DNA from: Boseongicola sp. SB0665_bin_10
GTDB lineage: Bacteria; Pseudomonadota; Alphaproteobacteria; Rhodobacterales; Rhodobacteraceae
Direction: 5' to 3'
Assembly: GCA_009838075.1 (NCBI GenBank)
Contig: VXSG01000109.1
Coordinates: 1-44,125 of the forward strand
Length of the DNA: 44,125 nucleotides
Shown here: positions 22,674 to 42,400 of the stretch, one piece after another
How the letters are laid out: every line of letters starts with the position of its first letter
Numbering within the stretch: the stretch's first letter is position 1
The notes under the pieces: model-generated
Told to the model about the DNA's origin: nothing
The model's input: only the letters and a program-made list of their open reading frames with translations
Databases searched by the model: none
Position numbers and translations under genes: made by a program

Positions 22674-22763
22674 TGGCGGAGAGACAGGGATTCGAACCCT
22701 GGGTGGGCTTGCACCCACAACGGTTTTCGAGACCGCCCCGTTCGACCGCTCCGGCACCTCTCC
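22674..22763 (-). tRNA. tRNA-Ser (anticodon CGA)
   Basis: The minus strand folds as a class II tRNA: acceptor GGAGAGG with TCTCTCC, anticodon arm GCGGT-CTCGAAA-ACCGT with CGA at positions 34-36, a long variable arm (GTGGGTGCAAGCCCAC), T-arm GGTTCGAATCC, and an encoded CCA. It reads UCG. tRNA-Ser genes are common integration sites, and accessory genes lie on its 3' side. Confidence 0.95.
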
Positions 22764-26582: not shown

Positions 26583-26908
26583 AGAGGGGACACCCGGTCT
26601 ACTGCAGGGATCCCGCCGACTGGGACCGGATCAGGAAGCGCGCTGACTCGGTCGGCAGGAGCGTCTCGGAGTTCGTGATGACCTGCGCGCTGCACGACGG
26701 AGACGCGACGCCGCCTACCGTGCTTGCTCTCACGCCCGAGCGGCAGCTGGAACTCTACAGGAACGTTCGCGAAATGCATCGCCGTATCGAGCAGATTTTC
26801 GACGAGAGGATGGACGGCTTTCCGGGGATAGACAGCGCAGTCCGCCTGCTGTTCCTCCTGCACGGCGGGGAGGAGAACCTCCACCTGCTGGCGGAGGGCG
26901 ATGAATGA
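26573..26908 (+). CDS. small helical protein of the mobilisation operon
   Basis: This 111-residue protein begins GLKRGHPVYCRDPADWDRIRKRADSVGRSVSEFVM, with the 'DWDRIRKRADSVGRSVSEFV' layout of small DNA-binding accessory proteins. It ends in an amphipathic segment (RRIEQIFDERMDGFPG). It overlaps its neighbours at both ends (10 bp upstream, ATGA downstream), so it is translated in series with them. A decayed partial copy of its last 45 residues lies at 27449-27580. No exact family is recognised. Confidence 0.55.
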   Translation: MGLKRGHPVYCRDPADWDRIRKRADSVGRSVSEFVMTCALHDGDATPPTVLALTPERQLELYRNVREMHRRIEQIFDERMDGFPGIDSAVRLLFLLHGGEENLHLLAEGDE

Positions 26909-27384
26909 CGCGGCCTCGCGGCATGCCGGAGAGGAAGACGTTCCATGTCTCCTGCACGGACGGGCAGTGGGCGGAGGCGAAGAGGCGGGCCGCAGCCGCC
27001 GGGATGAGGACGTCGCCCTGGCTCGTCGAGCGGGCGCTGGAGGCGGACCTGTCGATCTTCGACGCGCGGCCGGAGCCGCAGCGGCTGGCGCTGAGCCCGA
27101 ACCAGCAGGAGTGGATTCTGGGCGATGTCGAGCTGATGACGAACTCGCTCGAACAGCTTTTCAACGGCAAGGCGATCGAGGAGATGGGCAGGCAGGTCGC
27201 GCTTGTCCGCGACGCGAAGGTGAGGGAGATGATCGACGGCGGGCGGTTCGACGAGCTGTTCCTGGCCTTCGGGAAGCTCTTCGGGCCGGAGCGCGCCGAG
27301 AGGCTGCTGGCGAAGGTCGTGGCGGAGCGGCACGAGGCCGGTTCGGTCGAGGTGACCGTCGGTGGCCCGAAGAAGCGGTCGTGA
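26905..27384 (+). CDS. accessory protein of the mobilisation operon, copy A
   Basis: This 159-residue protein carries DGQWAEAKRRAAAAGMRTSP near the N-terminus, followed by WLVERALEADLSIFD. This is the MobC-like 'W.E...RA..AGM..S.W....AL' pattern of relaxosome accessory proteins. A helical middle and a short C-terminal strand (GSVEVTVGGPKK) follow. It starts in an ATGA overlap with the gene before. A close paralogue with the same length and order of elements lies at 27578-28057, so this gene has been duplicated in tandem. Confidence 0.55.
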   Translation: MTRPRGMPERKTFHVSCTDGQWAEAKRRAAAAGMRTSPWLVERALEADLSIFDARPEPQRLALSPNQQEWILGDVELMTNSLEQLFNGKAIEEMGRQVALVRDAKVREMIDGGRFDELFLAFGKLFGPERAERLLAKVVAERHEAGSVEVTVGGPKKRS

Positions 27385-27448
27385 TGCCACCCGCCGTGCT
27401 CGTGCCGTCCGCTGGGCAAGGATTCGGTCCCTGCAAGGACGTTGGTGA

Positions 27449-27580
27449 CATGGACCGCCGCGTCGACCCGATCTTCGACGAAAGGCTGGACGGCTCTCCG
27501 GGGAATGCCCGCGCGATGCGCCTGCCATTCCTTCTGCATGGCGGCGAGGACAGCCTCCGCCTGCCGGAGGGTCCCGGGTG
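27449..27580 (+). pseudogene. partial duplicate of the 26573-26908 gene
   Basis: The frame reads MDRRVDPIFDERLDGSPG and then LPFLLHGGEDSLRL. It matches the last 45 residues of the 26573-26908 product (MHRRIEQIFDERMDGFPG; LLFLLHGGEENLHL). The 5' part of that gene is absent, so this marks the left edge of a tandem duplication. Confidence 0.7.
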
Positions 27581-28057
27581 ACGCGGTCCCGGGTCAGGCC
27601 GGAAAGGAGAACGTTCTACATCTCCTGCACGGACGGGCAGTGGGCGGAGGCGAAGACAAGGGCCGCCGCCGCCGGCATGAAGACGTCGCCCTGGCTCGTC
27701 GAGCGGGCGCTGGAGGCGGACCTGTCGATCTTCGACGAGCGTCCGGAGCCGGAGCGGCTGGCGCTGAGCGAAACCTGGCAGCGCTGCATTGCGGAAAATG
27801 TGGAGTACATGACGGACTGGGTCGGGGAGTTGTTCGACGAGAAGGCGATCGAGAGGATCGGCAACCAGGTCGCGTTCATGTGCGACGTCATGGTGACGGA
27901 AATGATCGCCGACGGCAGGACCGACGAGGCGTTCCTGGCGTTCGAGAGGCTCGTCGGGCCGGAGAACGCGGAATGGCTGCTGGCGAAGGCCGTGAAGGAA
28001 TGGCACGGGGCGAAGTCGGTCGAGGTCAAGATCGGCGGCCCGACGAGGCGGGCGTGA
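27578..28057 (+). CDS. accessory protein of the mobilisation operon, copy B
   Basis: This 159-residue paralogue of the 26905-27384 product is near-identical for the first 60 residues (SCTDGQWAEAK; TSPWLVERALEADLSIFD). It diverges more in the middle, where LALSETWQRCIAENVEYMTD replaces LALSPNQQEWILGDVELMTN. It starts with GTG at the same relative place as the ATG of copy A. The DNA of the two copies is identical over runs of tens of bases, so the duplication is recent. The halogenase gene begins 151 bp later on the same strand and could be co-transcribed. Confidence 0.55.
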   Translation: MTRSRVRPERRTFYISCTDGQWAEAKTRAAAAGMKTSPWLVERALEADLSIFDERPEPERLALSETWQRCIAENVEYMTDWVGELFDEKAIERIGNQVAFMCDVMVTEMIADGRTDEAFLAFERLVGPENAEWLLAKAVKEWHGAKSVEVKIGGPTRRA

Positions 28058-28208
28058 CGCGCCCGGGCCGGACGGCGGCTCCGGAAGCCGCTCGGGGAGA
28101 ACGGGCCGCGGGCGAAACGGCTGGCATCGGCTGTCCGTCCATGAGCTGCGAACGCGCTGAAACGGGGTGCGCTTGGAGTTCGGGTCGGCAACCACGCGGA
28201 GGTGGAGC

Positions 28209-29699
28209 TTGAACGACCAGAGGATTCGAAAAGTCGTCATAGCCGGTGGCGGCACCGCGGGGTGGATGACTGCGGCGACGCTCGCAAAGCTGCTCGGCAA
28301 GACCCTGGACATCAAGCTGATCGAGTCGGAGGAGATCGGCACGGTTGGCGTCGGGGAGGCGACAATACCTCCGCTGAAATGGCAGCATCGTCTTCTGTCG
28401 ATCAGGGAGCCGGAATTTCTGCATGCCGTTCAGGGCACGTTCAAGCTTGGCATCCGCTTCGAGAACTGGCGGGATCTCGGAGGGAGATACTTCCATGTCT
28501 TCGGCAACTCCGGCCGAAGCAGCGGGGTGGCCGAATTCCAGCATTTCTGGCTCAGGGGCCGGAAACTGGGCATCGCGGGTGAGTTCGGAGAGTACTGCAA
28601 GGAGTGGGCGGCGGCGCGAAGCGGGCGGTTCGGACTGATCCTGAACTGCATTCTGGACTACGCCTACCACATTGACGCCTCCCTCTATGCCAAGCTCTTG
28701 CGCGACACGGCCGAAGGGTACGGCGTCATGCGGCAGGAGGCGCGCATCGCGCAGGTTGTGCAGGATTCGTGCAACGGCTTCATTTCCGGCTTGCGCCTGC
28801 AATCCGGACAACTGGTCGAGGGAGACCTGTTCATTGACTGCACGGGCTTTCGCGGACTTCTGATCGAACAGACGCTCAATGCCGGCTACGAAGATTGGGG
28901 CCACTGGCTGCCCTGCGACAGCGCGATTGCCGTCCAGGCCGAACCAACGGAGCCGCCACGTCCCTACACGCGCGCCATCGCCTGCGAGGCGGGGTGGCAG
29001 TGGCGCATACCCTTGCAGCATCGGGTCGGCAACGGCATCGTCTACAGCACCCGGCACTGGTCCGACGACGAGGCCAGAACCCGGCTGCTCGACAACGTTC
29101 GGGGGCGGCTGGTCACGGAGCCTCGCGTGATTCGCTTCAGAGCCGGGCAGAGGCGCAGGCACTGGCACAGGAACTGCGTGGCGGTGGGGCTGGCATCCGG
29201 TTTCATCGAGCCCTTGGAATCAACCAGCATTCATCTCATTCAGCGCAGCGTGACGCGCCTGGTGCAGATGTTTCCGAACAAGGGCATCCGCGAATCCGAC
29301 GTTCTCGAATTCAACAGGCAGATGCGGGTCGAGACCGACAGCGTCCGGGACTTCATCATCCTGCACTACCATGTCACGGAGCGGACGGATTCCCCGTTTT
29401 GGCGGCAGTGCCGCATGATGGAGATTCCCGATTCCCTCAGGCACCGCATCGAGCTGTTCAGACAAGGCGGACGCGTGTTCAAGACGTCGGAAGAGCTGTT
29501 CGGCGAGACCTCCTGGCTGCAGGTGATGCTCGGTCAGGGGCTGGTGCCCGAACAGCATCATCCCGCCGTCAACTCGATGGGCAATGAGGAACTCCGCGAT
29601 TTCCTCGAAGGAATCCGCGACGAGGTCGGCAATGCGGTCGATCGGCTTCCGGATCACCAGCGCTTCATTGACGACTACTGCAAGGCGCCCGCGGATTGA
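28209..29699 (+). CDS. flavin-dependent tryptophan halogenase
   Basis: This 496-residue enzyme has all landmarks of FADH2-dependent tryptophan halogenases. They are the FAD motif GGGTAGW (13-19), the catalytic lysine at exactly Lys79 (TFKLGI; Lys79 in PrnA and RebH), the WQWRIP form of the WxWxIP motif (263-268), and the catalytic glutamate in PLESTS (Glu337). Such enzymes make hypohalous acid from halide, O2 and FADH2, then chlorinate or brominate an indole via the lysine. The TTG at 28209 is chosen as start: GGAGG (28198-28202) sits 6 bp before it and MNDQRIRKVVI is the usual beginning. No flavin reductase is nearby. In this cluster the likely substrate is the Trp of the peptide encoded at 39072-39335, not free tryptophan; this is inference. 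Confidence 0.93.
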   Translation: MNDQRIRKVVIAGGGTAGWMTAATLAKLLGKTLDIKLIESEEIGTVGVGEATIPPLKWQHRLLSIREPEFLHAVQGTFKLGIRFENWRDLGGRYFHVFGNSGRSSGVAEFQHFWLRGRKLGIAGEFGEYCKEWAAARSGRFGLILNCILDYAYHIDASLYAKLLRDTAEGYGVMRQEARIAQVVQDSCNGFISGLRLQSGQLVEGDLFIDCTGFRGLLIEQTLNAGYEDWGHWLPCDSAIAVQAEPTEPPRPYTRAIACEAGWQWRIPLQHRVGNGIVYSTRHWSDDEARTRLLDNVRGRLVTEPRVIRFRAGQRRRHWHRNCVAVGLASGFIEPLESTSIHLIQRSVTRLVQMFPNKGIRESDVLEFNRQMRVETDSVRDFIILHYHVTERTDSPFWRQCRMMEIPDSLRHRIELFRQGGRVFKTSEELFGETSWLQVMLGQGLVPEQHHPAVNSMGNEELRDFLEGIRDEVGNAVDRLPDHQRFIDDYCKAPAD

Positions 29700-29739
29700 A
29701 TCCGGCCCCGCAATGCGGATGGCGCGAAGGGGGCCGGAT
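29700..29739. terminator. hairpin between convergent halogenase and oxygenase genes
   Basis: ATCCGGCCCC (29700-29709) and GGGGCCGGAT (29730-29739) are a perfect 10-bp inverted repeat right after the halogenase stop. No T-run follows. It may act as a terminator or RNA-stability element. The remaining DNA to 29912 shows no gene. Confidence 0.4.
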
Positions 29740-29912
29740 CCGCCGGGCAGTGTGCGACGACACAAGCTTCGATGGACCCGGGAAGCGTAGACCCGGCTTT
29801 GTCAGGTTCGGAAAGTTCGCCGGGCGGGAATTGCGGGTTGGTCCATGAGCAATCCGTTGGAATCCCTTCCATTGGGCGGGGCAGCCAGTGTCCGGGAGAA
29901 GCGAAGCCCTCG

Positions 29913-30887
29913 TCAATTCGCCGGATCCGCGGCAGCCATAGACGGCTGCCGCTTCATGCCGACCCAGTCGACTTCCGGTTCCTGGCGCCAGGTCGAAACC
30001 GTGCCGTCCAGCCGTCTGTTCGGCACCTCGGCCTGGAACCTGGCCTTTCTGCAATCCCGATCCGGGTCGGCGTCGGGGAGCACCGCCAGAACGCGGACTT
30101 CGACCGATTCCCGCAACGGCGCATCTTCCCGGGTGGTTGGATCCTGGAATGCAGTATGGAAGACCGCGCGCGAAGCGGCATCTTCCTGGCGCGAGTCGTA
30201 TTGCTTGAAGATCAACGCCTCGCTCGGCTTCATGTTCGGGAAGTAATGCCACATCTGGCCCGGTTCGTGAATCAGGCGGCAATTGATCACGCGTGTTTGC
30301 GGTTCGGAGCGCCGCAGGCAATCGGCGTAAACGATGTCGTCAGCGGAGACCGAGGCGAGATCGCACAGCGCCAGCGGCCCCGATTCGATCGGACGGTCTG
30401 GATTCGTTCCGCGCCAGATGTTGAACAGGGCGAAGTGGTGCCCTTCCGGCACTTCGACAAAGTCCTCGATCATTGGAGAAAAGTCGGCGTGAGCGCCCAC
30501 CCCGTAGAGACCCCGTCCAGCGGGTCCCGTTGCTCTTCCAGTGCGAAAGCCATGCTGCACGGCCTTGGCGGACAGGCACCCTGTGGCGGCCTCGACCAGA
30601 CTTTCGCAATGCCTCAGGAATTGGCCGGTCACACGGGAATGATTGCGAAAATCCAGATCATCTGGCGCATCGACCAGCTGGAAGCCCTCGCGCTCGATGC
30701 TTGGCGCGCGCTTCAGCGAACGGGCGTCGTGGATCCGCATCTCCCTGCGGCAAATCGCGTCCCTGCTGCCATCCGGATCGAACGCGTCCTCTGCGTTCAG
30801 ACGCGCAGACCGATGTCTCGGGCTGACGAAGACGCTGTCCGAGATCACGAAAGGCGTATCCAGAAGCGGTGGCAGTCGTCCGATCAT
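29913..30887 (-). CDS. CmcJ/NvfI-family oxidoreductase (Fe/2OG-type hydroxylase or desaturase)
   Basis: This 324-residue protein matches the CmcJ/NvfI/AsaB family, known from cephamycin hydroxylation and fungal natural-product oxidation. Family blocks are HFALFNIWRGTNP, PLALCDLASV, MWHYFPNMKPSEALIFKQYDS and VFHTAFQDPTTREDAPLRESVEVR. Members with known chemistry use Fe(II) and 2-oxoglutarate. The metal ligands are not assigned here, though HAD, HYF and HTAF supply candidates. It lies on the opposite strand between the halogenase and methyltransferase genes, suggesting it oxidises the same product. The ATG at 30887 has GGAG 13 bp upstream, rather distant. Confidence 0.82.
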   Translation of the reverse strand: MIGRLPPLLDTPFVISDSVFVSPRHRSARLNAEDAFDPDGSRDAICRREMRIHDARSLKRAPSIEREGFQLVDAPDDLDFRNHSRVTGQFLRHCESLVEAATGCLSAKAVQHGFRTGRATGPAGRGLYGVGAHADFSPMIEDFVEVPEGHHFALFNIWRGTNPDRPIESGPLALCDLASVSADDIVYADCLRRSEPQTRVINCRLIHEPGQMWHYFPNMKPSEALIFKQYDSRQEDAASRAVFHTAFQDPTTREDAPLRESVEVRVLAVLPDADPDRDCRKARFQAEVPNRRLDGTVSTWRQEPEVDWVGMKRQPSMAAADPAN

Positions 30888-31555
30888 CTGTCTTTCGCTC
30901 CACGCCCGCTCGGCCTGCCGGTCGTGTTCACATTATCGAACGCACCGATTTGCATCAAGCTGCGCGTTGCTCCATGGTCCGGGCGTGGCCCGGAACTCCT
31001 GCAACGCTTCGGCGCTCCGCCACTCCTGGCGGTGGGGGCATCCGGACGGGCCCGCTTCATTGGCATGGTGCCAACACTGCAGAACCAGAAAACACGGGCG
31101 TGAAGAAAGCTCGGGTGACCGTTTGGTCCCTGTCCGAGGCAGGCCGGATCGCCGAGGCGGTCAATGAGCGCGATCCGCTTGCTGCCGTCGCGAGAGTGTC
31201 GATGCCTGATTCCGACACTTCCGGAAAACAGCCGGTCGGGTGCAGCAGGAACTTATGCACGACCGCGCAATCCAGGTCGGAGGCGTGTCGTGGAGAACGG
31301 CTGCTGCAGCTTTGTGCTGCACCTGATGCTTGGCGGGACATACGGTGGTCCCGCCAGTGAGCTGGCGTCGTCCCGTTGCACAGACGAGCCGCAAAATTAG
31401 ACGCAGCCTGCCCTGAGTTCACGAACGGCGGGCGAACCCAGCCGTTTCCGACTGACCAGCCCGGTTGGGCTGAGGCTGATCGCCGACCGCCTCGCCAAGC
31501 TTGCGCAACGATGCCCTGCCTGCGTATGGTTCGGACATCATTGGGATCTGGAAAC
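30888..31555. other. 668-bp divergent intergenic region inside the peptide cluster
   Basis: No gene is supported here; it should hold promoters for the divergent oxygenase and methyltransferase. A perfect 9-bp hairpin, TGGCGGGAC and GTCCCGCCA, lies at 31331-31356. A frame starting GTG at about 31100 reads like protein for about 35 residues (VTVWSLSEAGRIAEAVNERD) but then degenerates. Confidence 0.45.
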
Positions 31556-32341
31556 ATGAAGAATCGTGCCGCGGAAAGCCCCGGAAGCATGCAGTGGTGG
31601 AAGGAAGAGCAGATTCGCTATTGGCGCGAAACGACCGACCATTACCTCAAGTTCGGCACCACCATCCAGGCCGGGATCCTTTGCGATGAAGACTCGGAAG
31701 GCCAGTCGTATGACGACAACAATCGCACCATCCTGAAGCGGTCCGGCCTTCGTGACGGCCAGGTGGTCCTTGATGCCGGCTGCGGCGTCTGCGGCCCGGG
31801 ACTCCATGCCGCAATGCATGTTCCGGGCCTTGAAGTGCACGGAGTGACCCTATCGCCCTATCAGGCCGAGGTCGCCCAAAAGCTGATCGCGGACTCTCCG
31901 GCCGCCGGGCGGGTTCACGTGCAAGCGGCGGACTACCACGAGCTGCCGTTTCCGGACCGGACATTCGACTGCGCCCTGTTTCTCGAATCCGCCGGATACT
32001 CCTTCCGGCTCGAGGAACTCTTTGCCGAGATTTCCAGGGTGCTGCAAGATGACGGGAAGGTCTACATCAAGGACGTGTTCTGCAGGGCCGGCGAGATGAC
32101 CGTGCAGGAATGGAAGCAGATCGACGCGTTTCGCCGGATCTACGCGCAGCCCACACCCCCCATGCAAGACATGTCGGCGGCGCTTGCGGCAGCCGGCTTT
32201 GCCGTCACGTCGGCGCTGGACATCACGCCGATGATCGTTCCCAGGCCCAGGGAACGGGAATTCGGCCTTCCCCGCTTCCGGCCGTTTCCGGCCCCGCCCA
32301 TACATTGGGGCGAAATTGTCGCCATCAAGGCAGCGACCTGA
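31556..32341 (+). CDS. SAM-dependent methyltransferase (class I)
   Basis: This 261-residue protein has the class I Rossmann methyltransferase fold. Motif I is VVLDAGCGVCGPGLHAA (about 70-86), the acidic ribose-binding segment is VHGVTLSPYQAEVAQ, motif II-type sequence is AADYHELPFPD, and motif III-type is LQDDGKVYIKDVF. The N-terminal WWKEEQIRYWRETTDHYLKFG resembles small-molecule N- and C-methyltransferases of natural-product pathways. The substrate is unknown; the exported peptide of this cluster is the obvious candidate. The ATG at 31556 begins the homology. The next gene starts 16 bp after its stop, so the two are an operon. Confidence 0.85.
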   Translation: MKNRAAESPGSMQWWKEEQIRYWRETTDHYLKFGTTIQAGILCDEDSEGQSYDDNNRTILKRSGLRDGQVVLDAGCGVCGPGLHAAMHVPGLEVHGVTLSPYQAEVAQKLIADSPAAGRVHVQAADYHELPFPDRTFDCALFLESAGYSFRLEELFAEISRVLQDDGKVYIKDVFCRAGEMTVQEWKQIDAFRRIYAQPTPPMQDMSAALAAAGFAVTSALDITPMIVPRPREREFGLPRFRPFPAPPIHWGEIVAIKAAT

Positions 32342-32357
32342 CGGGAACCAGGGGCTG

Positions 32358-33428
32358 ATGGAGCGCTTTGGGGACGTGCTGACCGGACTGCGCAGCCAGA
32401 TTCCCCGATCCTTGCTTGCCGGAGCGGGATGGGACCGCCTGCTTGAACGGGTCGGCGACCTGCCGACGGCCGCGGCGTCCTCTCTTTGCGGCTTCGAGTT
32501 CAGGCTGGACGAGCCTTCACCGGCGGCGGACTTTTCGAATCCGGTTTCCGACGGGAAGGTTGCGCGTCACCACATCGTCCGCGGCGAGGCGGCGGCGCCG
32601 GCATCGGTTGACGCATGGCTCGCCGCGCACCTGAAGGACCCGTCCGCGACCGAACATTGGCTCGAGTCCGTGTTGCTGGCCTACGACATCATCGGCATGC
32701 CTCCCGGACGGCCCGAGCCCCCGGTCATCTATCTGAGGCTTCTGTCCGGCCGCGGCAAGGGTGGGGCGGCCGCCGGACCAGCGACGATCGCGCGCACGGT
32801 TGCCCAGGCATCGGCGCGCGATGACAGCGCGCCCGAGCGCCGCGCGCTGACATGGGCGCTTGGAGTCTTGCCGGCGGGCGCCAGGCTTGCCTATGTCGGG
32901 GCGACCCCGAACCGTTCGCCCAGATCGGTCAGGTTGCTCATGGCGGACATCGGACCTCGTGACGTCGGACCCCTGCTCAGCCGGCTGGAGTGGCAGGGGT
33001 CGATCGCCGCCGTGGACCGCCTGCTGTCCGGCATGGCGGATCTTTGCCGTCGCTTCCTGCTCCTCCTCGATGTCAGCGAGGACGGCGCGTTGCCGCGCAT
33101 CGGCTTCGAAATGCATGCGTTGCCGGAGGACGCAACCAGCCACCGCGCCTTGTTCGCCGCCTGGCTGATCAGTTCGAGACCTGACTGGAAACCGGTGATC
33201 CAGCGCCTGGTGGACCGGCATCAATGCATCCCCGCCAAGGCCGAAGGCCTGCTGTCATGGCCCAGGCGGCGCACCGTCTTCGGCAAGGACGGGGCGTTCG
33301 AGCTCTACATGGGAATCAACCACGTAAAGCTGTCGGTCGAAGGGGGGGGGGTGCGGGCCAAGGCCTACGGCGGCCTACGCCTGCTGCCGATGGACGAGTT
33401 CGCGAAAGAGGCCCTCTTCGGCGGCTAG
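32358..33428 (+). CDS. conserved-looking protein of unknown family in the peptide cluster
   Basis: This 356-residue protein matches no family I can name. It has no signal peptide or membrane helix. Segments that look constrained are GFEFRLDEPSPAADFSNP (about 48-65), LESVLLAYDIIGMP, RFLLLLDVSEDGALPRIGFE, LSWPRRRTVFG and the C-terminal INHVKLSVEGGGVRAKAYGG. AGGGG lies 6 bp before the ATG. It follows the methyltransferase by 16 bp, so a tailoring or recognition role for the peptide is plausible but unproven. A G10 run (33342-33351) lies inside the gene. Its last 54 bp overlap the 3' end of the ABC transporter gene on the other strand. Confidence 0.75.
   Translation: MERFGDVLTGLRSQIPRSLLAGAGWDRLLERVGDLPTAAASSLCGFEFRLDEPSPAADFSNPVSDGKVARHHIVRGEAAAPASVDAWLAAHLKDPSATEHWLESVLLAYDIIGMPPGRPEPPVIYLRLLSGRGKGGAAAGPATIARTVAQASARDDSAPERRALTWALGVLPAGARLAYVGATPNRSPRSVRLLMADIGPRDVGPLLSRLEWQGSIAAVDRLLSGMADLCRRFLLLLDVSEDGALPRIGFEMHALPEDATSHRALFAAWLISSRPDWKPVIQRLVDRHQCIPAKAEGLLSWPRRRTVFGKDGAFELYMGINHVKLSVEGGGVRAKAYGGLRLLPMDEFAKEALFGG
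33342..33351 (+). repeat. G10 homopolymer inside the unknown-protein gene
   Basis: Ten consecutive G lie about 80 bp before the stop. The frame after the run keeps the constrained-looking AKAYGGLRLLPM segment, so length 10 appears to be the coding state. Gain or loss of one base would replace the last 25 residues. Confidence 0.9.
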
Positions 33429-36296
33429 CTCCTCGAAGCGGCCTGCCTGGGCGACACGGCCCGCTTTCAGCACGTAGATCCGGTTCGCCCGGCGTATGGT
33501 GGACAGCCGGTGCGCGATGACGATGCGCGTGCTGGCGGACTCCTCGATGGCTCGCATCGTCCGGGCCTGGCTGTTCGTGTCCAGCCAGCTCGTGGGTTCG
33601 TCGAGAAGGATGATGCGGGGGTTGCGTATCAACGCCGCAGCGATGCGGATTCGCTGAACCTGGCCGCCGGAGAACGTCGCCGCGTTTTCGTCCACGGAGG
33701 TATGAAGCCCCATCGGCATGGCGCGGACATCCTCCTCGACTCCGGCGAGACGCACGGCGCGCCAGGCGTCCTCCTCGTTCAATCCGGTGTCGTTGCCGAT
33801 TATGTTGTCGAGAATGGTTCCGCTTTGCAGCAGCACGTCCTGCAGCACGACGCCGAGCTGCCTTCGCACCGAGACGACATCAAGCTGGTCGAGACTCTGG
33901 CCGTCGAAATACACCGCCCCGGCGCTCGGCCGTTCCAGGCCAAGGGCGAGCCGGAGCAAGGTGCTCTTGCCAGCGCCGGATTCTCCCACGATGGCGATGA
34001 ATTCGCCCGGTTTCGCGTGAACGCTCACGTCCCGCAAGGTCGCGGCATTCTCAGAATAGCCGAAACTGACCTTGTCGAGAAGGATCTCCCCTTGCAGTTC
34101 CTTGCCCACGCCACGTACCGCGCCGGACGCCGTCTCGGCCGCAAGAACCGGACGCACCTGCTCGCAGGCCGGCTTGACGAAGGCGATCGAACGGACAGAA
34201 TTGCCCAGCATGACGAGTGTCATGAACAGGAACATCGCCGCGGTGTGAACCGCAAGAAAGTCGGCGGTGGCAAGGCCGTTCTCGCCTTGGACCGCCACCG
34301 CGGCGAACAGCGCGGCACTCCCGACGAAAGGCACCGCAGCCGCCAACGCCACAATCCGTTCGTTCAGGACGGCCTGCCGGATTTCCGCGTGCTTGTGTTC
34401 GCGATAGCGCCTTGCCCACGCGGCGAAGGCCATGTCCTCGGCCCCGGCGGTGCGCAGCTTCGCGATCCCGCTCAGGAACTGATGCAGTTCGCCCAGAAGC
34501 TGGCGCGACGACCGCAGATGGCTGCGCTGGTGCTCGATCAGGCTACCGCAGAAGGCGGCGGTTGCCCCGAGCACCGCAAATGTCAGGGCGGTGACCGTCC
34601 AGCCCAGGGTAGCATCGTGGTAGAAGATCAGCCCTAGGGCCGGCAGGGCGAACAGCGTGGACAACGCTGCATCGACCGCAATCCCGGCCACATTGTCCCT
34701 GACGTCCTGAAAGACCATCGATCTCGCCGCGAGTTCGCCTGCGCTGAAGCGGCGGAAAAACTTCAGCGGCAGGCGCAGCAGACGATCCCAAACGGCCGCG
34801 CCGATGCGCGCGGCGATCCGCCCTTCAAGGCGCATGAGCGCCATGCCCCTCAGCACCTGGGCCAGGGCAGCGGTCACCGCGATGCCGGCCAGAATCGCGG
34901 AGAACTGGAAGACGGCGACGGCATTTGCGGCGGGAATTGCATGCTCGACGAGCAGGTTCGCCGCAATGGCGGGCGCCAAGGCCAGCAGTCCCGCGCAAAG
35001 ACCGAAGGCCGTGAGCCGGACAGCCTCGGCAGTCATCGGCGCCACGCCGACGCCAAGCAGCTTCCGCATCGAGACGGGTCCGCTGGTGGACAGCGCGGGA
35101 TACAGGAGGCAGGCGTCCCGAAGCCCTGCGCCGGTTCCGGCATTGGCGCGCACGGCCTCGCCGGTTTCCGGATCCACGACGCGATAGCGTCCGGCAAGGC
35201 CGGGCAGGAGCGCCACGGGCCGGCCGTCGTCGCTTCGGAATGCCAGCATCGCGCCGCTGTCGCCAAGCCACCAGCGGTCTTCCACCGTCAGCCGCACGTC
35301 CCGTCTGCGCAGCGCGGACGCCATGCAGAAATCGTCCAGCGAAGGCGGGACTTCACCGGACACGGCCGGCGCGAGGATCTCGAGACCTTCATGGGCGCCG
35401 ACGATCCGCAGGGCCCGTTCGAGCGTGGAGTCGCCCTTTCGGCCTTTGCCCCTGGACTGCGTGCGGAAATCCAGCAGGTCCGCCAAGCCTCTTCTGGCAA
35501 GCGACTTTTCGCGGCGGCGCAGGGCCGCCGACGCCACCTGCAGGTTCGCGTCGTCCACCAGCAGCAGGCGACGATGAACGGATTCTGCGCCGAGAGCGAG
35601 GCGGTGGAACTCGGGCAGGCCGGCGTCGAGCAGCATCCGGATGCCGAGTTCCTGTGACGAGAGGCACGCGACGCCGCCGACTGCATGCAGCGTGACCCAG
35701 CTGTCCCGCGTCACCGGCATCAGGCCCCGTGGCCCGGACCGTGAGTCGGCCACGTCCAGGAAGGTCGCGTCCAGGTCATCGGCGGCAAGCCATGCCACGC
35801 CCTGCTCGGCCGCAGACACTCCGTGTCCCGCGTTGCTTCCCGGGCCGAGCCGCGACTCGATGCGGGGGCGGCCTTCGACTTCGGACGCCACCGCGCCCGC
35901 AAGATCCTCGACCCACGCGTCCAGCTGGGCCACGACCGCGGGCGCGATCGCTTCGGCTTGCCTCCCTCGGGCCGCTTCCTCGCGCAGTTCCGCGAGGGGG
36001 ATGCATTGCAGTGTCGTGGCTTGCACGCCCTTGGCGACGAGGAGCGTCGAATGCCCGGAGCCTTCCGCTCCGAAAGCCAGCCGGCCCCTTTCCAGGCGCG
36101 CGATGTGCCTGTACGGCATTTCCATCCGGCCGTCGGCAAGCTCCGTCCCGAGAATGTCGATCGCGCCTTCCTCGACGAACCAGGCCAGGCCGGGGTCGTC
36201 CAGCCGGATCGGGCGGTTGCCGGCCGCATCACGGCGTTCGCCCTTGGCGGCGAAGAATGCGGCCAGCGCGCCTTCCGTGCGGCTCTCATTCGCCAT
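33375..36296 (-). CDS. NHLM-type bacteriocin ABC transporter, ATP-binding/permease protein
   Basis: This 973-residue protein is the larger, peptidase-free ABC exporter of NHLM (nitrile-hydratase-leader microcin) systems. About 400 N-terminal residues form a cytoplasmic region with cyclic-nucleotide-type and other beta-rich parts. An ABC exporter membrane domain of about six helices follows, then the ATPase with Walker A GESGAGKST, signature FSGGQVQRI and Walker B IILLDEPTSWLD. The pairing with a C39-containing ABC protein directly upstream (11-bp overlap at 36286-36296) is the usual arrangement. It probably acts with that protein to export the mature peptide. Its 3' end overlaps the convergent gene by 54 bp. 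Confidence 0.9.
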   Translation of the reverse strand: MANESRTEGALAAFFAAKGERRDAAGNRPIRLDDPGLAWFVEEGAIDILGTELADGRMEMPYRHIARLERGRLAFGAEGSGHSTLLVAKGVQATTLQCIPLAELREEAARGRQAEAIAPAVVAQLDAWVEDLAGAVASEVEGRPRIESRLGPGSNAGHGVSAAEQGVAWLAADDLDATFLDVADSRSGPRGLMPVTRDSWVTLHAVGGVACLSSQELGIRMLLDAGLPEFHRLALGAESVHRRLLLVDDANLQVASAALRRREKSLARRGLADLLDFRTQSRGKGRKGDSTLERALRIVGAHEGLEILAPAVSGEVPPSLDDFCMASALRRRDVRLTVEDRWWLGDSGAMLAFRSDDGRPVALLPGLAGRYRVVDPETGEAVRANAGTGAGLRDACLLYPALSTSGPVSMRKLLGVGVAPMTAEAVRLTAFGLCAGLLALAPAIAANLLVEHAIPAANAVAVFQFSAILAGIAVTAALAQVLRGMALMRLEGRIAARIGAAVWDRLLRLPLKFFRRFSAGELAARSMVFQDVRDNVAGIAVDAALSTLFALPALGLIFYHDATLGWTVTALTFAVLGATAAFCGSLIEHQRSHLRSSRQLLGELHQFLSGIAKLRTAGAEDMAFAAWARRYREHKHAEIRQAVLNERIVALAAAVPFVGSAALFAAVAVQGENGLATADFLAVHTAAMFLFMTLVMLGNSVRSIAFVKPACEQVRPVLAAETASGAVRGVGKELQGEILLDKVSFGYSENAATLRDVSVHAKPGEFIAIVGESGAGKSTLLRLALGLERPSAGAVYFDGQSLDQLDVVSVRRQLGVVLQDVLLQSGTILDNIIGNDTGLNEEDAWRAVRLAGVEEDVRAMPMGLHTSVDENAATFSGGQVQRIRIAAALIRNPRIILLDEPTSWLDTNSQARTMRAIEESASTRIVIAHRLSTIRRANRIYVLKAGRVAQAGRFEELAAEEGLFRELVHRQQA

Positions 36297-38505
36297 GCAT
36301 CAGCCTTCGATAGAAGCTGTCATGAGCATGGAGCTCGTCGTGAGTGCCCTGCTCGACGATGCGGCCCTGGTCCATGACGACGACAAGGTCGGCGTCGCGG
36401 ATGGTGCCGAGGCGATGGGCGACGACCAGGCAGGAGCAGCCCCGGCGGCGGATGCGGTCATCGATCCGCAGCTCGACGGCCGGGTCGAGCGCGCTGGTCG
36501 CTTCATCCAGGATCAGCAGTGACGGATTGCTGACCAGCGCCCGGGCGATTTCGAGCCGTGCGCGCTGGCCGCCGCTGAAATTGCGCCCTCGCTCTTCAAC
36601 CATTGACTCGTATGCCCCGGGCCGACTGGTGACTTCCCCATGAATCGCGGCATCCCGGGCGGCGGCGGTCATGTGTCGCTCGGGAACCGTCGCGTCCCAC
36701 ATCGTCAGGTTGTCGCGCACGCTCGCGGCAAACAGCACGGGCTGCTGGTTCACGATGGAAACCGATCGGCAGAACACTTCCCTGGGAATGCCGGCGAGTG
36801 CATGCCCGTCGAACAGCACCTCGCCGGACCATGGCTGATGCAGTCCGACCGCGAGCAACGCCAGGGTGGACTTCCCCGAACCGCTTGCGCCCACCACCGC
36901 CACTCGCTGGCCGGGCTCGATCGTCAAATTGAAGTCTTCCACAAGCGGCGGGCGGTTCCGCTGGAAACCGAAGGTCACGCCCCGCAGTTCCAGCCGGCCG
37001 ACCAGCCGCAGGCGGCCGCCGAGCGCGCGGACACGGCCTTGCGGGTCGCCGTCACGGTTTGCCAGCGTGGCTGCCTGCGGGGCGTTGAAGACGTCATCCA
37101 TCCTGGTCAGGTCTGCCTCCAGGGTCGCCAGGAGATCCGAGAACTGGCCAATGCTCGACACCGGGCGGAGGAAGTTGCCGGCCAGAACGTAGAATCCCAG
37201 CAAGGTCCCGATGCTCATGTCCCCGGACATCGCGCGCCAGCCGCCAAGGCCGAACACCGCCGCCGCCGCGAACAGCTGGAACAGTTGCGGCAGCGCGGCC
37301 GCGACATGGCCCAGCTCCACGAACCTTTGCCTGGCGCCGAGTTCGCGAGCCTGCCTGCCGCTCCAGCGCGAAAAGAAGTCGTTCTCGCCGGCCGTCGCCT
37401 GCAGGCTCTCGATCATGCGCAACCCTGCCGCGCTCATGCCGGCAAGGATTCCCTGTTCGCGCCGCACCTGATGGTTCCGGTCGCGGCGCATGCGGGCAAG
37501 CACATGGATCGACATCACGCAAGCGATGCCAAGGCCGGCCACGGCCAGACCCAGCAGAAAGTCCAGGGCAAGCATTGCGGCAAGGAAGACCGTGCTCATC
37601 GCCAGATCGACACCGAGCCGCACGAGCTGGCCGGCCCCCGCTTCGGCGACCTGGTCTATCAGCCGCATGCGCAGGGCCAGGTCCGCGGCAAAGCGCTGGC
37701 TGAAGAATCGCATCGGCAGCCGAAGCAAGTGGTCCAGGTAGCGGTCCGACTGCTCCGTGGACAGCCGCAGGACCAGATCGTTCAGGGTGCGCATCTGCAG
37801 CCACGTGAACAGGAAGACGAGTCCGCCAGCGGCCATCATGGTCGCGACCAGGGTCCCGCCTGCATCAGTCTGCTGCGCCTGCAGCACGCCGTCGACGAAC
37901 CGGGCAAGCAGCAACGGCAAGGCAAGCGAAGTCAGGGCAAGCAGCAAACCGAATGCGGTCGCGCGGCCCAGCAATGCGCGATGGCCGCGCAGCCAGGGCC
38001 ACAATCGCCGCATGACGCCCGGGCGCGTGCCGGTGGCGACGAACCCGGTGTCCGGCTCAAGCAGGAGTCCGACGCCGGTGAAGTCGCGATTGAAGGTACG
38101 GGCATCGACCACCCGATGTCCCTCGGCGGGGTCGTTCAGGTAGTAGCATCCCCGCCCGACACCCTCGAGAACGACGAAGTGCCTGAACCCCCAGAACAGG
38201 ATCATGGGCATCGGCAGCCGGGACAGTCCGCTCACCTGGCTCGACCAGCCGGTCGCCTTCAGGCCGCAGTTCCGGGCGGCGACCGCAAGATCCTCGAGCG
38301 TCGCGCCGTCACGTCCTGCGCCGCAGCGTTCGCGCAGTTCCTCGAGCTGCGCCCAGCAGCCGAAATGCGCGAGCACGATGCCAAGACATGCGGCGCCGCA
38401 GTCGGTGGCTTCCAGCTGCATGACCAAGGGCGTGCGGCGACGCATCGCGTTGCGTTTCGAAGGTGCGGGACCGGTGGCTGAGTCTGATTGGCGGCCGTTG
38501 TTCAT
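36286..38505 (-). CDS. NHLM-type ABC transporter with C39 leader peptidase
   Basis: This 739-residue protein joins an N-terminal C39 peptidase to an ABC exporter. The peptidase triad is visible: Cys36 in EATDCGAAC, His109 in FRHFVVLEG and Asp125 in YYLNDPAEGH. Six membrane helices follow (about 160-430), then the ATPase with Walker A GASGSGKST, signature FSGGQRARLEIARAL and Walker B LLILDEATSALD. C39 domains cut precursors after a Gly-Gly pair during export, and the precursor encoded just upstream has such a site (Gly78-Gly79). The ATG at 38505 lies 12 bp after the small membrane gene; ATG at 38445 is an alternative that still keeps the peptidase intact. Confidence 0.93.
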   Translation of the reverse strand: MNNGRQSDSATGPAPSKRNAMRRRTPLVMQLEATDCGAACLGIVLAHFGCWAQLEELRERCGAGRDGATLEDLAVAARNCGLKATGWSSQVSGLSRLPMPMILFWGFRHFVVLEGVGRGCYYLNDPAEGHRVVDARTFNRDFTGVGLLLEPDTGFVATGTRPGVMRRLWPWLRGHRALLGRATAFGLLLALTSLALPLLLARFVDGVLQAQQTDAGGTLVATMMAAGGLVFLFTWLQMRTLNDLVLRLSTEQSDRYLDHLLRLPMRFFSQRFAADLALRMRLIDQVAEAGAGQLVRLGVDLAMSTVFLAAMLALDFLLGLAVAGLGIACVMSIHVLARMRRDRNHQVRREQGILAGMSAAGLRMIESLQATAGENDFFSRWSGRQARELGARQRFVELGHVAAALPQLFQLFAAAAVFGLGGWRAMSGDMSIGTLLGFYVLAGNFLRPVSSIGQFSDLLATLEADLTRMDDVFNAPQAATLANRDGDPQGRVRALGGRLRLVGRLELRGVTFGFQRNRPPLVEDFNLTIEPGQRVAVVGASGSGKSTLALLAVGLHQPWSGEVLFDGHALAGIPREVFCRSVSIVNQQPVLFAASVRDNLTMWDATVPERHMTAAARDAAIHGEVTSRPGAYESMVEERGRNFSGGQRARLEIARALVSNPSLLILDEATSALDPAVELRIDDRIRRRGCSCLVVAHRLGTIRDADLVVVMDQGRIVEQGTHDELHAHDSFYRRLMHGE

Positions 38506-38517
38506 CGGAACGGAATG

Positions 38518-38685
38518 TCAGTTCAGCAAGACGGTGGCGATGGCCAGAACGAAAAGCAAGGAAATTCCGAACGCCAGCAGGAACACCCTTTCATGCGGTG
38601 CCGTGACTCGCAGGAGTTCGTCCGGCGCTTCGGGCTGCGCATGGCGGATCAGCGCTTCACGGCGGAAGAATCTTCTGTCAGTCAT
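38518..38685 (-). CDS. 55-residue membrane protein resembling the N-terminus of the NHLM HlyD-like secretion protein
   Basis: The product reads MTDRRFFRREALIRHAQPEA, then PDELLRVTAPHERVF, then one membrane helix (about 34-54), and ends LLN. The 'FR+EAL-R-PE--D-LLRVT-P' layout before a single helix is what starts the HlyD-like subunit (TIGR03794 type) of NHLM exporters. The periplasmic adaptor that should follow is absent and the stop codon comes right after the helix. It lies between the precursor and the C39 transporter, where the full subunit is normally found. The ATG at 38685 has AGGG upstream. It may be a remnant or a genuine miniature subunit. Confidence 0.6.
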   Translation of the reverse strand: MTDRRFFRREALIRHAQPEAPDELLRVTAPHERVFLLAFGISLLFVLAIATVLLN

Positions 38686-39071
38686 GGAAAGACCCTGGCC
38701 AAATCCGCAATCCCGTTCAACAATCCTGGTCAGACTGTGACGGCCAGCCGCCGTCTGCCTCGCTGGCAGCCTGCCGAACTTCAGGCAACAGCCCGACCCC
38801 GGCCCATGATGCAGTCATCAGGCCGGAAGAGCGCGGTTTTCTGGCCCCGCACGGATGATCGCTCCTGCCCCCTTGATGGCCGAAGCCACGGAACCTGGCG
38901 GCAGGCGACTTGGCGAACTCTCCGGGACGCAGGACAGTTCCTTCGCCGGCAAGGCGATGCCGGACCGAGGCCACACCCTCAACCGCCGCTGTCCGGCCGC
39001 TATGCAGGAGCCGGCCTGCATCGCGTTTCATGCCGAACCTGCAGACGCCTTCGCGCCAATGCCGGCCGCTC
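38686..39071 (-). other. 386-bp region between precursor and small membrane gene
   Basis: No intact gene is supported here. One minus-strand frame contains PPGSVASAIKGAGAIIRAG (about 38843-38901), which resembles the 'GS-P--V-G-G-LIR-G' stretch that follows the membrane helix in NHLM HlyD-like proteins. This suggests debris of that gene. The rest has no features. Confidence 0.35.
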
Positions 39072-39335
39072 CTAGTACGAGCTTGAGGTCGGAGCCCAAC
39101 CTCCGGCTGCGCCGCGCAGTTCCTCGTCGGAAAGGCGGCTGCCTGCCGGCGGCAGGACCAAGTGAAATTCGGTCGCGCTCTCTTCATGCACGTTGATGGA
39201 AAACCCTTCCGGCACCGTAAGCCCGGTGGCTTCCTTGATTGCCTCGCGCGGGTCTTCAAGCAACCTGCCGCGGAAGGCTTCGTCCTCGTCCGCCTTGACC
39301 TTGATCATGTCTTCCATTTCCACTGCGGTCTTCAT
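39072..39335 (-). CDS. NHLP-leader RiPP precursor peptide (core WAPTSSSY)
   Basis: This 87-residue protein has the nitrile-hydratase alpha-like leader used by NHLM/proteusin-type peptides. The visible features are VKADEDEAFRGRLLEDPREA, then IKEATGLTVPEGFSINVHEE, the HLVLPP segment, and LSDEELRGAAGG at the leader end. Gly78-Gly79 is the expected C39 cut site, leaving an eight-residue core, WAPTSSSY (80-87). Trp80 is the only Trp and Tyr87 the only Tyr in the whole protein. GAGGAG (39343-39348) sits 7 bp before the ATG at 39335. The transporter genes follow on the same strand and the tailoring genes lie beyond them. The frame is open upstream, but the leader homology begins at this ATG. Confidence 0.9.
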   Translation of the reverse strand: MKTAVEMEDMIKVKADEDEAFRGRLLEDPREAIKEATGLTVPEGFSINVHEESATEFHLVLPPAGSRLSDEELRGAAGGWAPTSSSY

Positions 39336-39353
39336 GGAGTCTCTCCTCAGGCT

Positions 39354-39481: not shown

Positions 39482-42400
39482 CTACCGCCCGTAGTCGATC
39501 TCGGGGCCCATGTAGCGCGACGGGCTGCGGCTCCGCTCCAGTTCCCGCTCGCGCTGCCTGATCGCCCTCTCGCGTTCCATCCGGACCTTGTACGCCGCCT
39601 CGACCTCCTTCCGGACGGGCGCGTCGCGCCTGACGGTTTCCGTGATCGTGGCCGCCATCTCCCGCATCCGCCTCTCCAGCCCGGGAACCCTGTCAAGATG
39701 CGGGCCGTAGCGGTCCCTGTCGCCGAGGACATGCCGGAAATACCCGACATGGCGCGTGGCCTCGCGCTTCCACCCGGCGTAGGGGTGCATCTCTGAAACG
39801 AACCGCTCGCCGCCTTCCTCGCGCTCCTGCACTGCCTTCGCAAGATCGTCCTCCAGGCCTTCGACGCATGCCTGCGCGACCCGCATGTCGTCGCGCAGCA
39901 GCCTTTCGCGGGCCGCGAGCGCGTTCTTTCCCGGCCCCACGCACGCCTGCTGGCCCAGGTCGCGGACCCAGCTCCCGTAGCCCTCGACGAAGTAGCGGTG
40001 GCATCCCTCCTTCTCCGCCCTGTCGCCGATCTCCTCGAAGGTCCGGACATGCCGCGCCTCGAGGCCGCAGGCGTCAAGCGTGTCCTTGATGCGCACCGTC
40101 GCCCTCTCCAGCGCCTTGCGATCATCGGGAGAGATCAGCGGGTCCTTCGCCAGCGTCTCGCCCCGCTCGACCACCTTCGGGGCCGACCTTGCCCAGCGTC
40201 CGTAGCTGCTGGCCAGGCTCCTGCCGAGCGGCGTTTCCGGCCGCCAACGCGCGGCCCGCTCGACGATCCTCCGTCTCCTGGCGTCGAAACCCGTCACTTC
40301 CCTGACGCGATGCCGGATCCCGCGGTCCCTCGCCTCCAGCCCGGGCAGCCCGTCCACCATGCCCGCGAGGTCCGGGGGCAGGTCGTGCCCGAAGCCCGCG
40401 AGCCGCTCGACGAAGCGGCCGTATCCTGCCACGTGGAACGGATGGCAGCCCTGCCGCTCCGCCTCCGCCTCGATCCTGCCGAGGTCCTTGCGAAGGCCGA
40501 GGATCCGGCCCTCCGCCGTGCGCCTCCCGTTCAGTTCGGCGAGGACGTCCTTCACCGGCAGGAGACGTCCCGTGTCCAGGAGCCTGGCCGACAGGCGGCC
40601 GTCTGCGAGAATCCCCTCCGCCTCGGCCATGGCCTTGCACGTGGCCTCCCCGGGAGGCTCCGGCGTATCCGAGCAGTCGGCAATCTGCTTGAGGGCATGC
40701 CCGAACCGCTTCCACCTGTGCCGCACGCTTTCGCAGTCTCGCGCGAGGTCGGCCGTCGCCTTGGGCAGTTCTCCGGGGTGCCGCTCATCGAATTCCCGGG
40801 TCCGTTCCAGCAGCGCCTCCGTGCCCGCCAGGAAGGCGATGTCGCGATGCTGCATCGCTGCCTTGGCGCGGCGGCTCCGCCATTCCCTCTCGATCCCGGC
40901 AAGGGCGTCGTCCCGTTCGCGGGCATCACGCATGATTCCTGCGCCGGCATGTTCGAGCCGGTCGCCCAGGTCGCGCACGCGGGCGCCGCAATCCCTGACG
41001 CCCTCGGCAATCGGCTCCGGCAGCGGCCCGGGATGCCTCTGCGCGAACGCGCCGGTCCGCTTCAGAACCGCGTCGGTTCCAGCCTGCGCGGCGACGTTGG
41101 CGCCGTCCCTCTCCGCCCGCGCGCGCAGGTTCCGCCATGCCTCCTCGATCACGTCGAGATCCAGCCGGCGGACATGGCCATCGTGGTCCGCCAGGATCCG
41201 CGCAAGCTCGTCCGGCGCGTCGCCGCCCTCGGCTTCCGCACGGTTGCGGAGCCGGTCCAGCAGCGCGTCGGCCTCCTTCGCCAGGAAGGGGGAGATGCCG
41301 TCGCGCTCCGCCTCCGCCTCCAGCGCCCGCCACTCCTGAAGGGCGGGACGCAGCGGCTCCTTCCGGGAGACCTCGCGCTCCAGGTGGCGCACGGCGTGGC
41401 CCGTCGCCTCCAGCGCCGAATGCGACACGCCGATCTCCTGCTCCAGGCGGTGCACGAGCTCCTGCGTGTCGTCGGTCAGCAGCACGAACCCGTCGCGGGC
41501 CCGGCTCATCTCCACGTAGAGCAGCGCGCGGTCCGTCATCATGCTGGTCGCGTCCAGGACCGCGATCACGTTGTCCGTCGTGACTCCTTGAGCGCGGTGC
41601 ACCGTCGAGGTCCAGGCGTGGTCGACATGCCGCAGGCCGTCGTCGTCGGTCCTGAACGACAGCCGCCGTCCGCCTTCGAGCCGGATGCGGACGCGCTTCC
41701 GCCCGATCTCCGCGATCGTGCCGCGCTCGCCGTTCACGACGCCCGGTTCCCCGAGGTTGCGCGTGAAGACGATCTCGTCCCCCGCCCTCAGCGAGATCGG
41801 GCGGGTCTCGAACACGGAGACGTTGTGGGAGGCGTTGCCCGACGGCCTGAACCCGCCGGTGACGCCTCGCCGCTCCAGCGCGATCCCGTCCTCGCCGCTG
41901 CCGGTGACCCGCCAGGCCTCGCCCTTCCGCAAGCCGTAGACGTCGCGGTTCGCGACCACGGCGTCGCCCGGCCGGTAGCTCATCGGGTCCGCCGCCAGGA
42001 CCCGTGTCAGCCGGCGGTCCACGAAACGCCCGGTTTCCAGCGTCCGGCCGCCGAGGATTTCCTCCTCCGCGAGACCCTTGCGAAGGACGGCGGTGGTCTC
42101 CTCCCGCTGCGCGTGGGTCGGCGCCAGGATCACGGTCCGTCTCCGCGCTTCCGGGGGCAGCGCCAGCCAGAGCCGCGCCGCCGTCTCGGGCAGCCTGTCC
42201 GGCGGAAGCTCCTTCACGTCGGCGCCGAGGCTATGGAGCGCGAGATCCGCGTCCCCCGCGACCATGTGCGTCACGGCGGCCTTGAGGTCGACGGACCGCT
42301 GCCGGAGGATGTCGTCCATGCGGGCCGTCTCCATGCCGGCCTCCTGCAGCAGCCGGAACGGCTGTCCCGCCTCGACCGACCTCAATTGGAGCCTGTCGCC

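Follow-up and report, generated by a model that had tools for sequence, protein, structure and literature searches.

The 44,125-nucleotide stretch of contig VXSG01000109.1 of Boseongicola sp. SB0665_bin_10 analysed here (the window) carries, between positions 28209 and 39335, seven genes whose product is most likely a small ribosomal peptide that is both halogenated and prenylated. The host genome is 4.8 Mb in size and 98.6% complete. The genes encode a precursor of the NHLP (proteusin) type, two NHLM-type exporters (ABC1 and ABC2), a flavin-dependent halogenase, an oxygenase, a methyltransferase and a 356-residue protein with a predicted ABBA prenyltransferase fold. The best explanation of the whole, tailoring sites included, and one that we regard as fairly probable, is a proteusin-like pathway for a ribosomally synthesised and post-translationally modified peptide (RiPP) with no scaffold-forming maturase in the cluster. 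The 87-residue precursor would supply an eight-residue core, WAPTSSSY; the halogenase, served by a flavin reductase encoded elsewhere in the genome, would halogenate the indole of Trp1 with the leader still attached, probably using bromide; the prenyltransferase would prenylate the C-terminal aromatic residue, Tyr8 in this core; the oxygenase would hydroxylate the core and the methyltransferase would methylate the core or the newly made hydroxyl; finally, the C39 domain of ABC1 would cleave after Gly-Gly, and ABC1 and ABC2 would export the product.

The precursor gene (39072-39335, minus strand) encodes a protein that passed the NHLP model TIGR03793 with 67.6 bits (cut-off 50.9), the match ending at residue 79, and that scored 15.5 bits against the Nif11 model TIGR03798. 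Its leader (residues 1-79) has an LxxxxL motif at residue 68 and ends in AAGG, and the core predicted from the translation corresponds to the codons of residues 80-87 (39075-39098, minus strand); it lacks Cys, ends in Tyr and has its single Trp at position 1. Release of this core after GG is suggested by the leader model and by the C39 peptidase. The order of transcription on the minus strand, leftwards from 39335, is precursor, ABC1 and ABC2. ABC1 (36286-38505, 739 residues) has a C39 domain (PF03412, E 1.5e-29) carrying C36, H109 and D125, which we take to be the peptidase triad, and ABC2 (33375-36296, minus strand, 973 residues) is of the permease/ATPase type. Their best NCBIfam models, TIGR03796 for ABC1 and TIGR03797 for ABC2, are the NHLM pair, in agreement with the initial annotation, which had named both as NHLM exporters; the scores, however, were under the curated cut-offs (818.3 vs 853.3 bits and 661.4 vs 709.4 bits, respectively). 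Shine-Dalgarno-like sequences precede two of the genes: the precursor ATG has GAGGAG 7 nt upstream and the halogenase gene starts with TTG, with GGAGG 6 nt upstream. Promoter and terminator scans gave no more predictions than in shuffled sequence.

When the GTDB genome collection was scanned with the 356-residue protein, four loci were obtained (L032-L035; L0xx and L1xx designate fetched loci, Gxxx sampled genomes and G000 the window's own genome), which belonged to two Boseongicola bins, one Defluviicoccus and one Rhodobacteraceae bin. The halogenase, oxygenase, methyltransferase, 356-residue protein and ABC genes were in identical order in all four, and the precursor was present in three of them, the contig of L034 stopping inside ABC1. 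The two Boseongicola bins were near-identical, the window and SB0675_bin_26 sharing 99.9% identity over 15.7 kb. Nucleotide similarity to L034 and L035 was limited to positions 28193-39336 (blastn, E<=1e-8), as far as these stretches extend. The ratio of nonsynonymous to synonymous substitutions (dN/dS) against the diverged L034 and L035 was 0.11-0.27 in 12 informative comparisons, with 0.18-0.20 for the halogenase; L033 as well as ABC1 and the precursor of L034 were left out, and the comparison with the near-identical L032 was uninformative (undefined for five genes, 0.24 for ABC1 and 0.30 for ABC2). None of the seven window genes contained an internal stop, and neither did 25 of the 26 gene copies checked across L032-L035; the match to the oxygenase of L034 crosses one stop near the C-terminus, and the open reading frame (ORF) there is of 316 residues. 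The genes, their families, the conservation of the set and the predicted prenyltransferase fold are what the analysis shows directly, and the seven genes are real as a conserved set, more than a chance assemblage. The reading that a mobile element carries them in a decaying state or by accident is extremely improbable: relaxase and mobilisation genes flank the cluster, a partial relative on contig C29 of the same genome precedes a transposase-like gene and the oxygenase frame of L034 meets its stop a few residues before the match ends, but the gene order was kept in four bins, with the dN/dS values given above and intact frames in the window.

The initial annotation had proposed looking for co-occurrence of the NHLP leader, the halogenase and the 356-residue protein. 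The full set is known from five places (the window and the four bins, four of the five having come from a search with one of the cluster genes), always with NHLM-type exporters, and with the NHLP precursor wherever the contig extends. Two more distant relatives were incomplete. The partial one on C29 (L148) has ABC1 (68% identity), ABC2 (53%) and the oxygenase (about 50-51%), followed by the transposase-like gene, and no precursor was detected when it was sought on this stretch. The diverged cluster of G185 has the precursor (67%), the oxygenase (55%) and the prenyltransferase (46%), plus ABC1 and ABC2; the G185 genome held no halogenase of the window's kind, only an SrpI-like one, and no close methyltransferase, the best (32%) being on a different contig. 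An integrase and a TraI-type relaxase adjoin the G185 precursor. The bin labels IRC, RHO and COS match the sponges Ircinia, Rhopaloeides and Coscinoderma of the bin survey, according to the part of that paper available (PMC8163846), and from these labels the host bacterium is probably sponge-associated.

Scans with Pfam and NCBIfam families found no lanthionine synthetase, YcaO or radical SAM (S-adenosylmethionine) protein among the seven cluster proteins. The earlier description was supported in that an NHLP precursor, its own exporters and tailoring enzymes make up a RiPP cluster without the classical maturases. Two YcaO queries (E<=1e-3) had no match in the window, in L032-L035 or in L038, and both recovered the YcaO proteins of L047 and L040. 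A radical SAM query had no match in the window either, yet the ORF at 17341-18864 has a weak match to a radical SAM family, so this control was insensitive. A scaffold maturase might be borrowed in trans from another NHLP locus, namely the YcaO on contig C103 of the same genome, and the product would then be an srp-like azole proteusin. The genome does have further NHLP precursors besides this YcaO, but the window core has no Cys, the precursors observed on stretches with a YcaO terminate in CCC or CCCW, and the YcaO queries were negative in the window, L032-L035 and L038, so that we consider this improbable. Four further NHLP precursors were seen in the genome (contigs C73, C74 and C103; L045-L048). 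Two of them, on C103, end in AGRCCC, and besides the YcaO this contig holds a desaturase-domain protein, an MPAB/Lcp-type protein and three relatives of the prenyltransferase.

The gene of the 356-residue protein lies at 32358-33428 (plus strand). A sequence search found no Pfam family at E<=1, a profile compared with the PDB sequences found no prenyltransferase up to E 5, and a single sub-threshold NCBIfam match, which would have made it AmcA precursor-like (E 0.0066), was judged to be due to chance. Since identification from sequence failed, a predicted fold was needed. The AlphaFold2 model, made with a 13-sequence alignment (predicted local distance difference test 84.5, predicted template-modelling score 0.85), has 11 strands and intervening helices, the succession of which agrees with five alpha-beta-beta-alpha repeats. 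In a Foldseek comparison of this model with the PDB, all 29 matches at E<=0.001, and likewise all the top 44 ranks, were ABBA prenyltransferases, including CloQ, Orf2, EpzP, IptA, AmbP1, AmbP3, FgaPT2, FamD1 and PirF. K294 and H322 were invariant in the alignment and R192, K324, K335 and Y337 nearly so. The modelled fold indicates that the protein is very probably a prenyltransferase of the ABBA type, so that the product, which had been expected to be halogenated, oxidised and/or methylated in keeping with the tailoring genes present, should be prenylated too; the earlier list of modifications was incomplete in this respect. In a distant relative from G162 this domain is followed by a second one, for which the terpene cyclase MstE was the best match of known structure (E 1.9e-24), and a protein of G095 is homologous to this fusion over most of its length, the MstE match having been checked for the G162 protein only. 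The joining of such a domain to an MstE-like cyclase is independent support for the prenyltransferase assignment.

When 240 genomes of the class were scanned with the profile of this protein, 12 matches were obtained, in six of the genomes. The seven strong ones (at least 296 bits, three genomes) were all on contigs with an NHLP precursor within about 7 kb, and the five weak ones (at most 57 bits) had no NHLP precursor on the stretches fetched; some of those loci had themselves contributed sequences to the profile, so the co-occurrence of the strong matches is not an independent test. A search with the single protein in 299 genomes of the phylum found it in its own genome only, in 3 places, and a scan of viral contigs with the profile found no relative. 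The srp-like loci L039, L040 and L044, with the core LCCCW, also encode a prenyltransferase relative, and L039 and L040 an MMPL transporter as well; in L039 (11438-12739, minus strand) an NHLP-like match lies within a 433-residue ORF beside the srp-like precursor, which is not a short precursor. Of the two cyanobacterial plasmids in L121/L122, that of Pseudanabaena has a prenyltransferase domain fused to a 2-oxoglutarate oxygenase domain beside Nif11/LanM genes, and that of Nostoc a stand-alone prenyltransferase relative in the vicinity of two NHLP precursors and of a radical-SAM-like gene with a sub-threshold score. A 368-residue neighbour of the G185 prenyltransferase was considered as a possible terpene cyclase and showed only a weak PDB match to drimenol synthase (E 0.001): it had no Pfam (E<=0.5) or NCBIfam (E<=0.01) match, and blast revealed no significant similarity between it and the two fused proteins.

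The tailoring sites were suggested by the cores. A Gly-Gly leader end followed by a short variable core was found in the window (WAPTSSSY), in L035 (WAPTSDSY, in a precursor ortholog 89% identical) and in G185 (FAPGGDSW). Trp1 accompanies the halogenase in the window and L035, Phe1 is found in G185, the genome without that halogenase, and the last residue is aromatic throughout (Tyr in the window and L035, Trp in G185). As Trp1 tracks the halogenase and the terminal residue stays aromatic, this pattern suggests that the halogenase may act on residue 1 and the prenyltransferase on the last residue. Around a prenyltransferase relative of G261 (L036, on contig C1), 11 of 11 NHLP cores (10 different) end in Trp, and this genome had no halogenase of the window's kind. 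A background of 11 hand-picked NHLP cores, none of which had a terminal aromatic residue, was not used as evidence.

The acceptor could instead be something other than the C-terminal aromatic residue (Trp1, Ser/Thr, the N-terminus or another group), or the methyltransferase could act beforehand on the prenyl diphosphate to give a non-canonical prenyl group. The methyltransferase (31556-32341, plus strand, 261 residues) is a class I S-adenosylmethionine-dependent enzyme (Methyltransf_11, E 3e-15) whose nearest solved structures were diverse methyltransferases. BezA methylates a prenyl diphosphate, and it (7fbh, 47.8 bits) and the geranyl diphosphate 2-C-methyltransferase (4f84, 26.7 bits) are among these relatives, but D-glucose O-methyltransferase (61.1 bits) and MitM (59 bits) scored higher; as the matches were mixed, methylation of a prenyl diphosphate was kept as an alternative only. 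Some prenyltransferase relatives adjoin cores without a terminal aromatic residue, so the idea that the enzyme always faces such a residue was contradicted by the cores ending in RCCC and KS; against this, the terminal residue is aromatic in every G261 core and in 7 of 12 other cores. We regard these alternatives as unlikely, though as the most probable of those considered here.

The halogenase (28209-29699, plus strand, 496 residues; PF04820, E 6e-187) is of the Xcc4156/BrvH type and is 58% identical to Xcc4156 (PDB 6y1w; 285 of 492 columns). Aligned to 6y1w, 9luq and 6frl, its motifs were complete (K79, WQWRIP as WxWxIP at 263, E337 and the flavin adenine dinucleotide motif), and no match by pattern was found in it to a motif like Trp4, the motif of free-tryptophan halogenases as defined in PMC8269204. 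Every element listed in the initial annotation was found in its place, the family matches, K79, WQWRIP, E337 and the C39 residues being confirmed. Against the halogenases beside LCCCW precursors, which represented the SrpI-like group in place of the SrpI sequence itself, identity was 24-25% by blastp (two proteins) and 30-31% in global alignment (three proteins). In a tree of 48 rows trimmed to the matched part (rows shorter than 330 residues, duplicates, L033 and Xcc4156 left out), the cluster halogenases formed one branch with 100/100 support within their close relatives, and the three SrpI-like rows formed another, also with 100/100. In the phylum sample of 299 genomes, 34 held a relative at E<=1e-60, the own genome included. 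For the nearest relatives outside the cluster, 20 neighbourhoods were fetched (about 14-19 kb each, from 19 genomes, a subset of all relatives found), and none of them contained the precursor, prenyltransferase, oxygenase or methyltransferase; one annotated context comprised a TonB receptor, SapC, a cupin and glycoside hydrolases. Because the two groups occupy separate branches, share low identity and the close relatives have non-RiPP contexts, the association with NHLP precursors appears, from these comparisons, to have arisen separately in two halogenase lineages.

The accessible text of PMC7336383 reports, as of 2020, that BrvH and the Xanthomonas enzymes had no known native substrate, that free tryptophan was not halogenated, that free indole was halogenated by Xcc4156 and BrvH, and that a peptide was a possible substrate. 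The window enzyme might likewise act on a small indole or other compound, as its relatives near TonB receptors may do, and stand in the locus as cargo or for a small-molecule partner. Acceptance of free indole and the non-RiPP neighbourhoods just described would fit this, but the halogenase lies within the conserved block in all four loci under the dN/dS noted above, the cluster halogenases form a single clade, and the first core residue is Trp in the presence of the halogenase but Phe in the sole relative that lacks it; we hold it to be rather unlikely, a little more so than a different prenyl acceptor. The initial annotation had named, as the finding that would count against a peptide role, loci with the halogenase, oxygenase and methyltransferase but no precursor or exporter: this arrangement was seen for the halogenase alone, in the 20 contexts, and the full set was always accompanied by exporters. 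Halogenation of the core peptide remains the preferred reading, and because the enzyme sits with a predicted core having a single Trp, a peptide substrate is directly testable by co-expression.

The oxygenase (29913-30887, minus strand, 324 residues) is a CmcJ/NvfI-family protein, probably of the Fe(II)/2-oxoglutarate type. It passed the subfamily model NF041278 (177.7 bits, cut-off 80), matched the NvfI structure 7de2 (E 7e-11) and has the metal residues HxD...H (HAD at 133 and His 244 in FHTAF). Among 240 genomes of the class, close relatives (E<=1e-20) were found only in G185 (55%) and on the own contig C29 (51%), the others among the matches listed being below 40%. Since both close relatives directly follow NHLM-type ABC genes, the oxygenase and the exporters may be an old unit to which the halogenase and the methyltransferase were added. 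To our knowledge, the characterised CmcJ/NvfI members act on small molecules, unlike the oxygenase of the window, which is in an NHLP cluster.

Several points weigh against the proposed pathway. The template-modelling scores of the Foldseek matches were modest (0.35-0.53 by query length, first 44 ranks), and around the fused proteins of G095 and G162 (L123 and L124) no NHLP precursor was found within the approximately 20 kb fetched. The exporter scores were both under the curated cut-offs. The Trp1/Phe1 contrast comes from one diverged locus only, that of G185; 5 of the 12 cores outside G261 beside prenyltransferase relatives lack a terminal aromatic residue (three RCCC and two Nostoc KS), these 12 cores are not mutually independent, and NHLP-like domains inside larger ORFs, such as L039:11438-12739, were left out of the core counts. 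Every substrate, site, halide and reaction order, and with them the whole of the chemistry, is what we infer from the genes. We propose only tentatively, at a little under even chances, that the cluster represents a new proteusin subtype without a scaffold maturase, in which the core is only halogenated (Trp1), prenylated (C-terminal aromatic residue), oxidised and methylated.

The initial annotation had presented the combination of an NHLP precursor with a tryptophan halogenase as undescribed, a claim that did not hold, because the srp/SrpI (PMC10858898, PMC12615548) and mpp (PMC11791876, PMC12715784) systems have been published. According to the parts of these papers available, SrpI is a brominase whose target is the C-terminal Trp of an LCCCW proteusin core, leader attached (PMC10858898, PMC12615548), and srp installs thiazolines via YcaO (PMC10858898). 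Like srp (SrpE, SrpI and the YcaO SrpC), the window has an NHLP precursor, Trp in a short core, a flavin halogenase and a probable sponge setting, and it shares NHLM-type exporters and a prenyltransferase relative with the srp-like LCCCW loci. In contrast to srp, it has no YcaO or core Cys, its Trp is at core position 1 rather than at the C-terminus, an oxygenase and a methyltransferase are added, and its halogenase is 24-31% identical to the srp-like ones and apart from them in the tree.

In the mpp system of Moorena producens (MppE, MppM, the brominase MppI, the prenyltransferase MppC, the terpene synthase MppD and the oxygenase MppG), MppI brominates and MppC geranylates different Trp residues of one Nif11-leader lanthipeptide, as described in the portions consulted (PMC11791876, PMC12715784). 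Mpp resembles the window in its long Gly-Gly leader, Trp halogenase, ABBA prenyltransferase, oxygenase and short core; it differs, in the same portions, in its Nif11 leader, lanthionine synthetase and arginases, whereas the window has no LanM and its leader passes TIGR03793. MppI was found as an SrpI-like halogenase, the mpp transporters are without a peptidase domain, and no methyltransferase is named for mpp in that text.

NctPC transfers geranylgeranyl to Trp and then cyclises it, as summarised in the accessible part of a review (PMC13290415). Its ABBA domain, of low similarity to known ones, is joined to an MstE-like cyclase, an architecture also seen in a distant relative of the 356-residue protein (L058), and has Trp as acceptor; the window protein differs in standing alone with no cyclase gene in the cluster, and the likeness is to the description of NctPC, not to its sequence. 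As in MibH of the NAI-107 pathway, a flavin halogenase would act on a peptide Trp, but MibH acts on a lanthipeptide core after leader removal, as far as the available text tells (PMC10858898), and belongs to another cluster type. Xcc4156 and BrvH share with the window enzyme the catalytic motifs and the lack of a Trp4-like motif, but no RiPP context is named for them in the part of their description available, whereas the window halogenase adjoins a candidate peptide. A literature search found no paper on a proteusin with a prenyltransferase and a terpene cyclase, and none evidently describing the seven-gene set in the open literature, which is weak evidence, as subscription papers were mostly uncovered.

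The observation is therefore sound and the RiPP reading well supported, and the novelty lies in the variant and not in the joining of an NHLP precursor with a halogenase: the cluster has no YcaO, LanM or radical SAM protein, its NHLP precursor is accompanied by a halogenase of a second lineage, and the formerly unknown protein is assigned as a prenyltransferase. Here a halogenase of the Xcc4156/BrvH type belongs to a conserved RiPP cluster whose short predicted core contains one Trp only, and this core is a candidate natural target for a common halogenase type whose studied members had none; if the proposal is true, a peptide would be the native substrate of such a halogenase. With the 356-residue protein as a prenyltransferase, proteusins would gain a lipid-type modification, and the relatives found suggest a prenyltransferase gene in srp-like clusters too; ABBA prenyltransferases linked to NHLP precursors would then form a family in alphaproteobacteria and cyanobacteria, srp-like clusters included.

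The cluster is flanked on both sides (22674-28057 and 39482-44041) by a tRNA-Ser, an MMPL gene, NikA-like genes and a MobF relaxase. The NikA-like mobilisation genes (26211-28057, plus strand; PF21983 in three scanned ORFs, one below cut-off) and the TrwC/MobF relaxase-helicase gene (39482-44041, minus strand; PF08751, E 8e-73) lie outside the pathway. The MMPL gene encodes 712 residues, its relatives being longer (790 and 823 residues), and two adjacent flanking stretches of the window were 77.7% alike.

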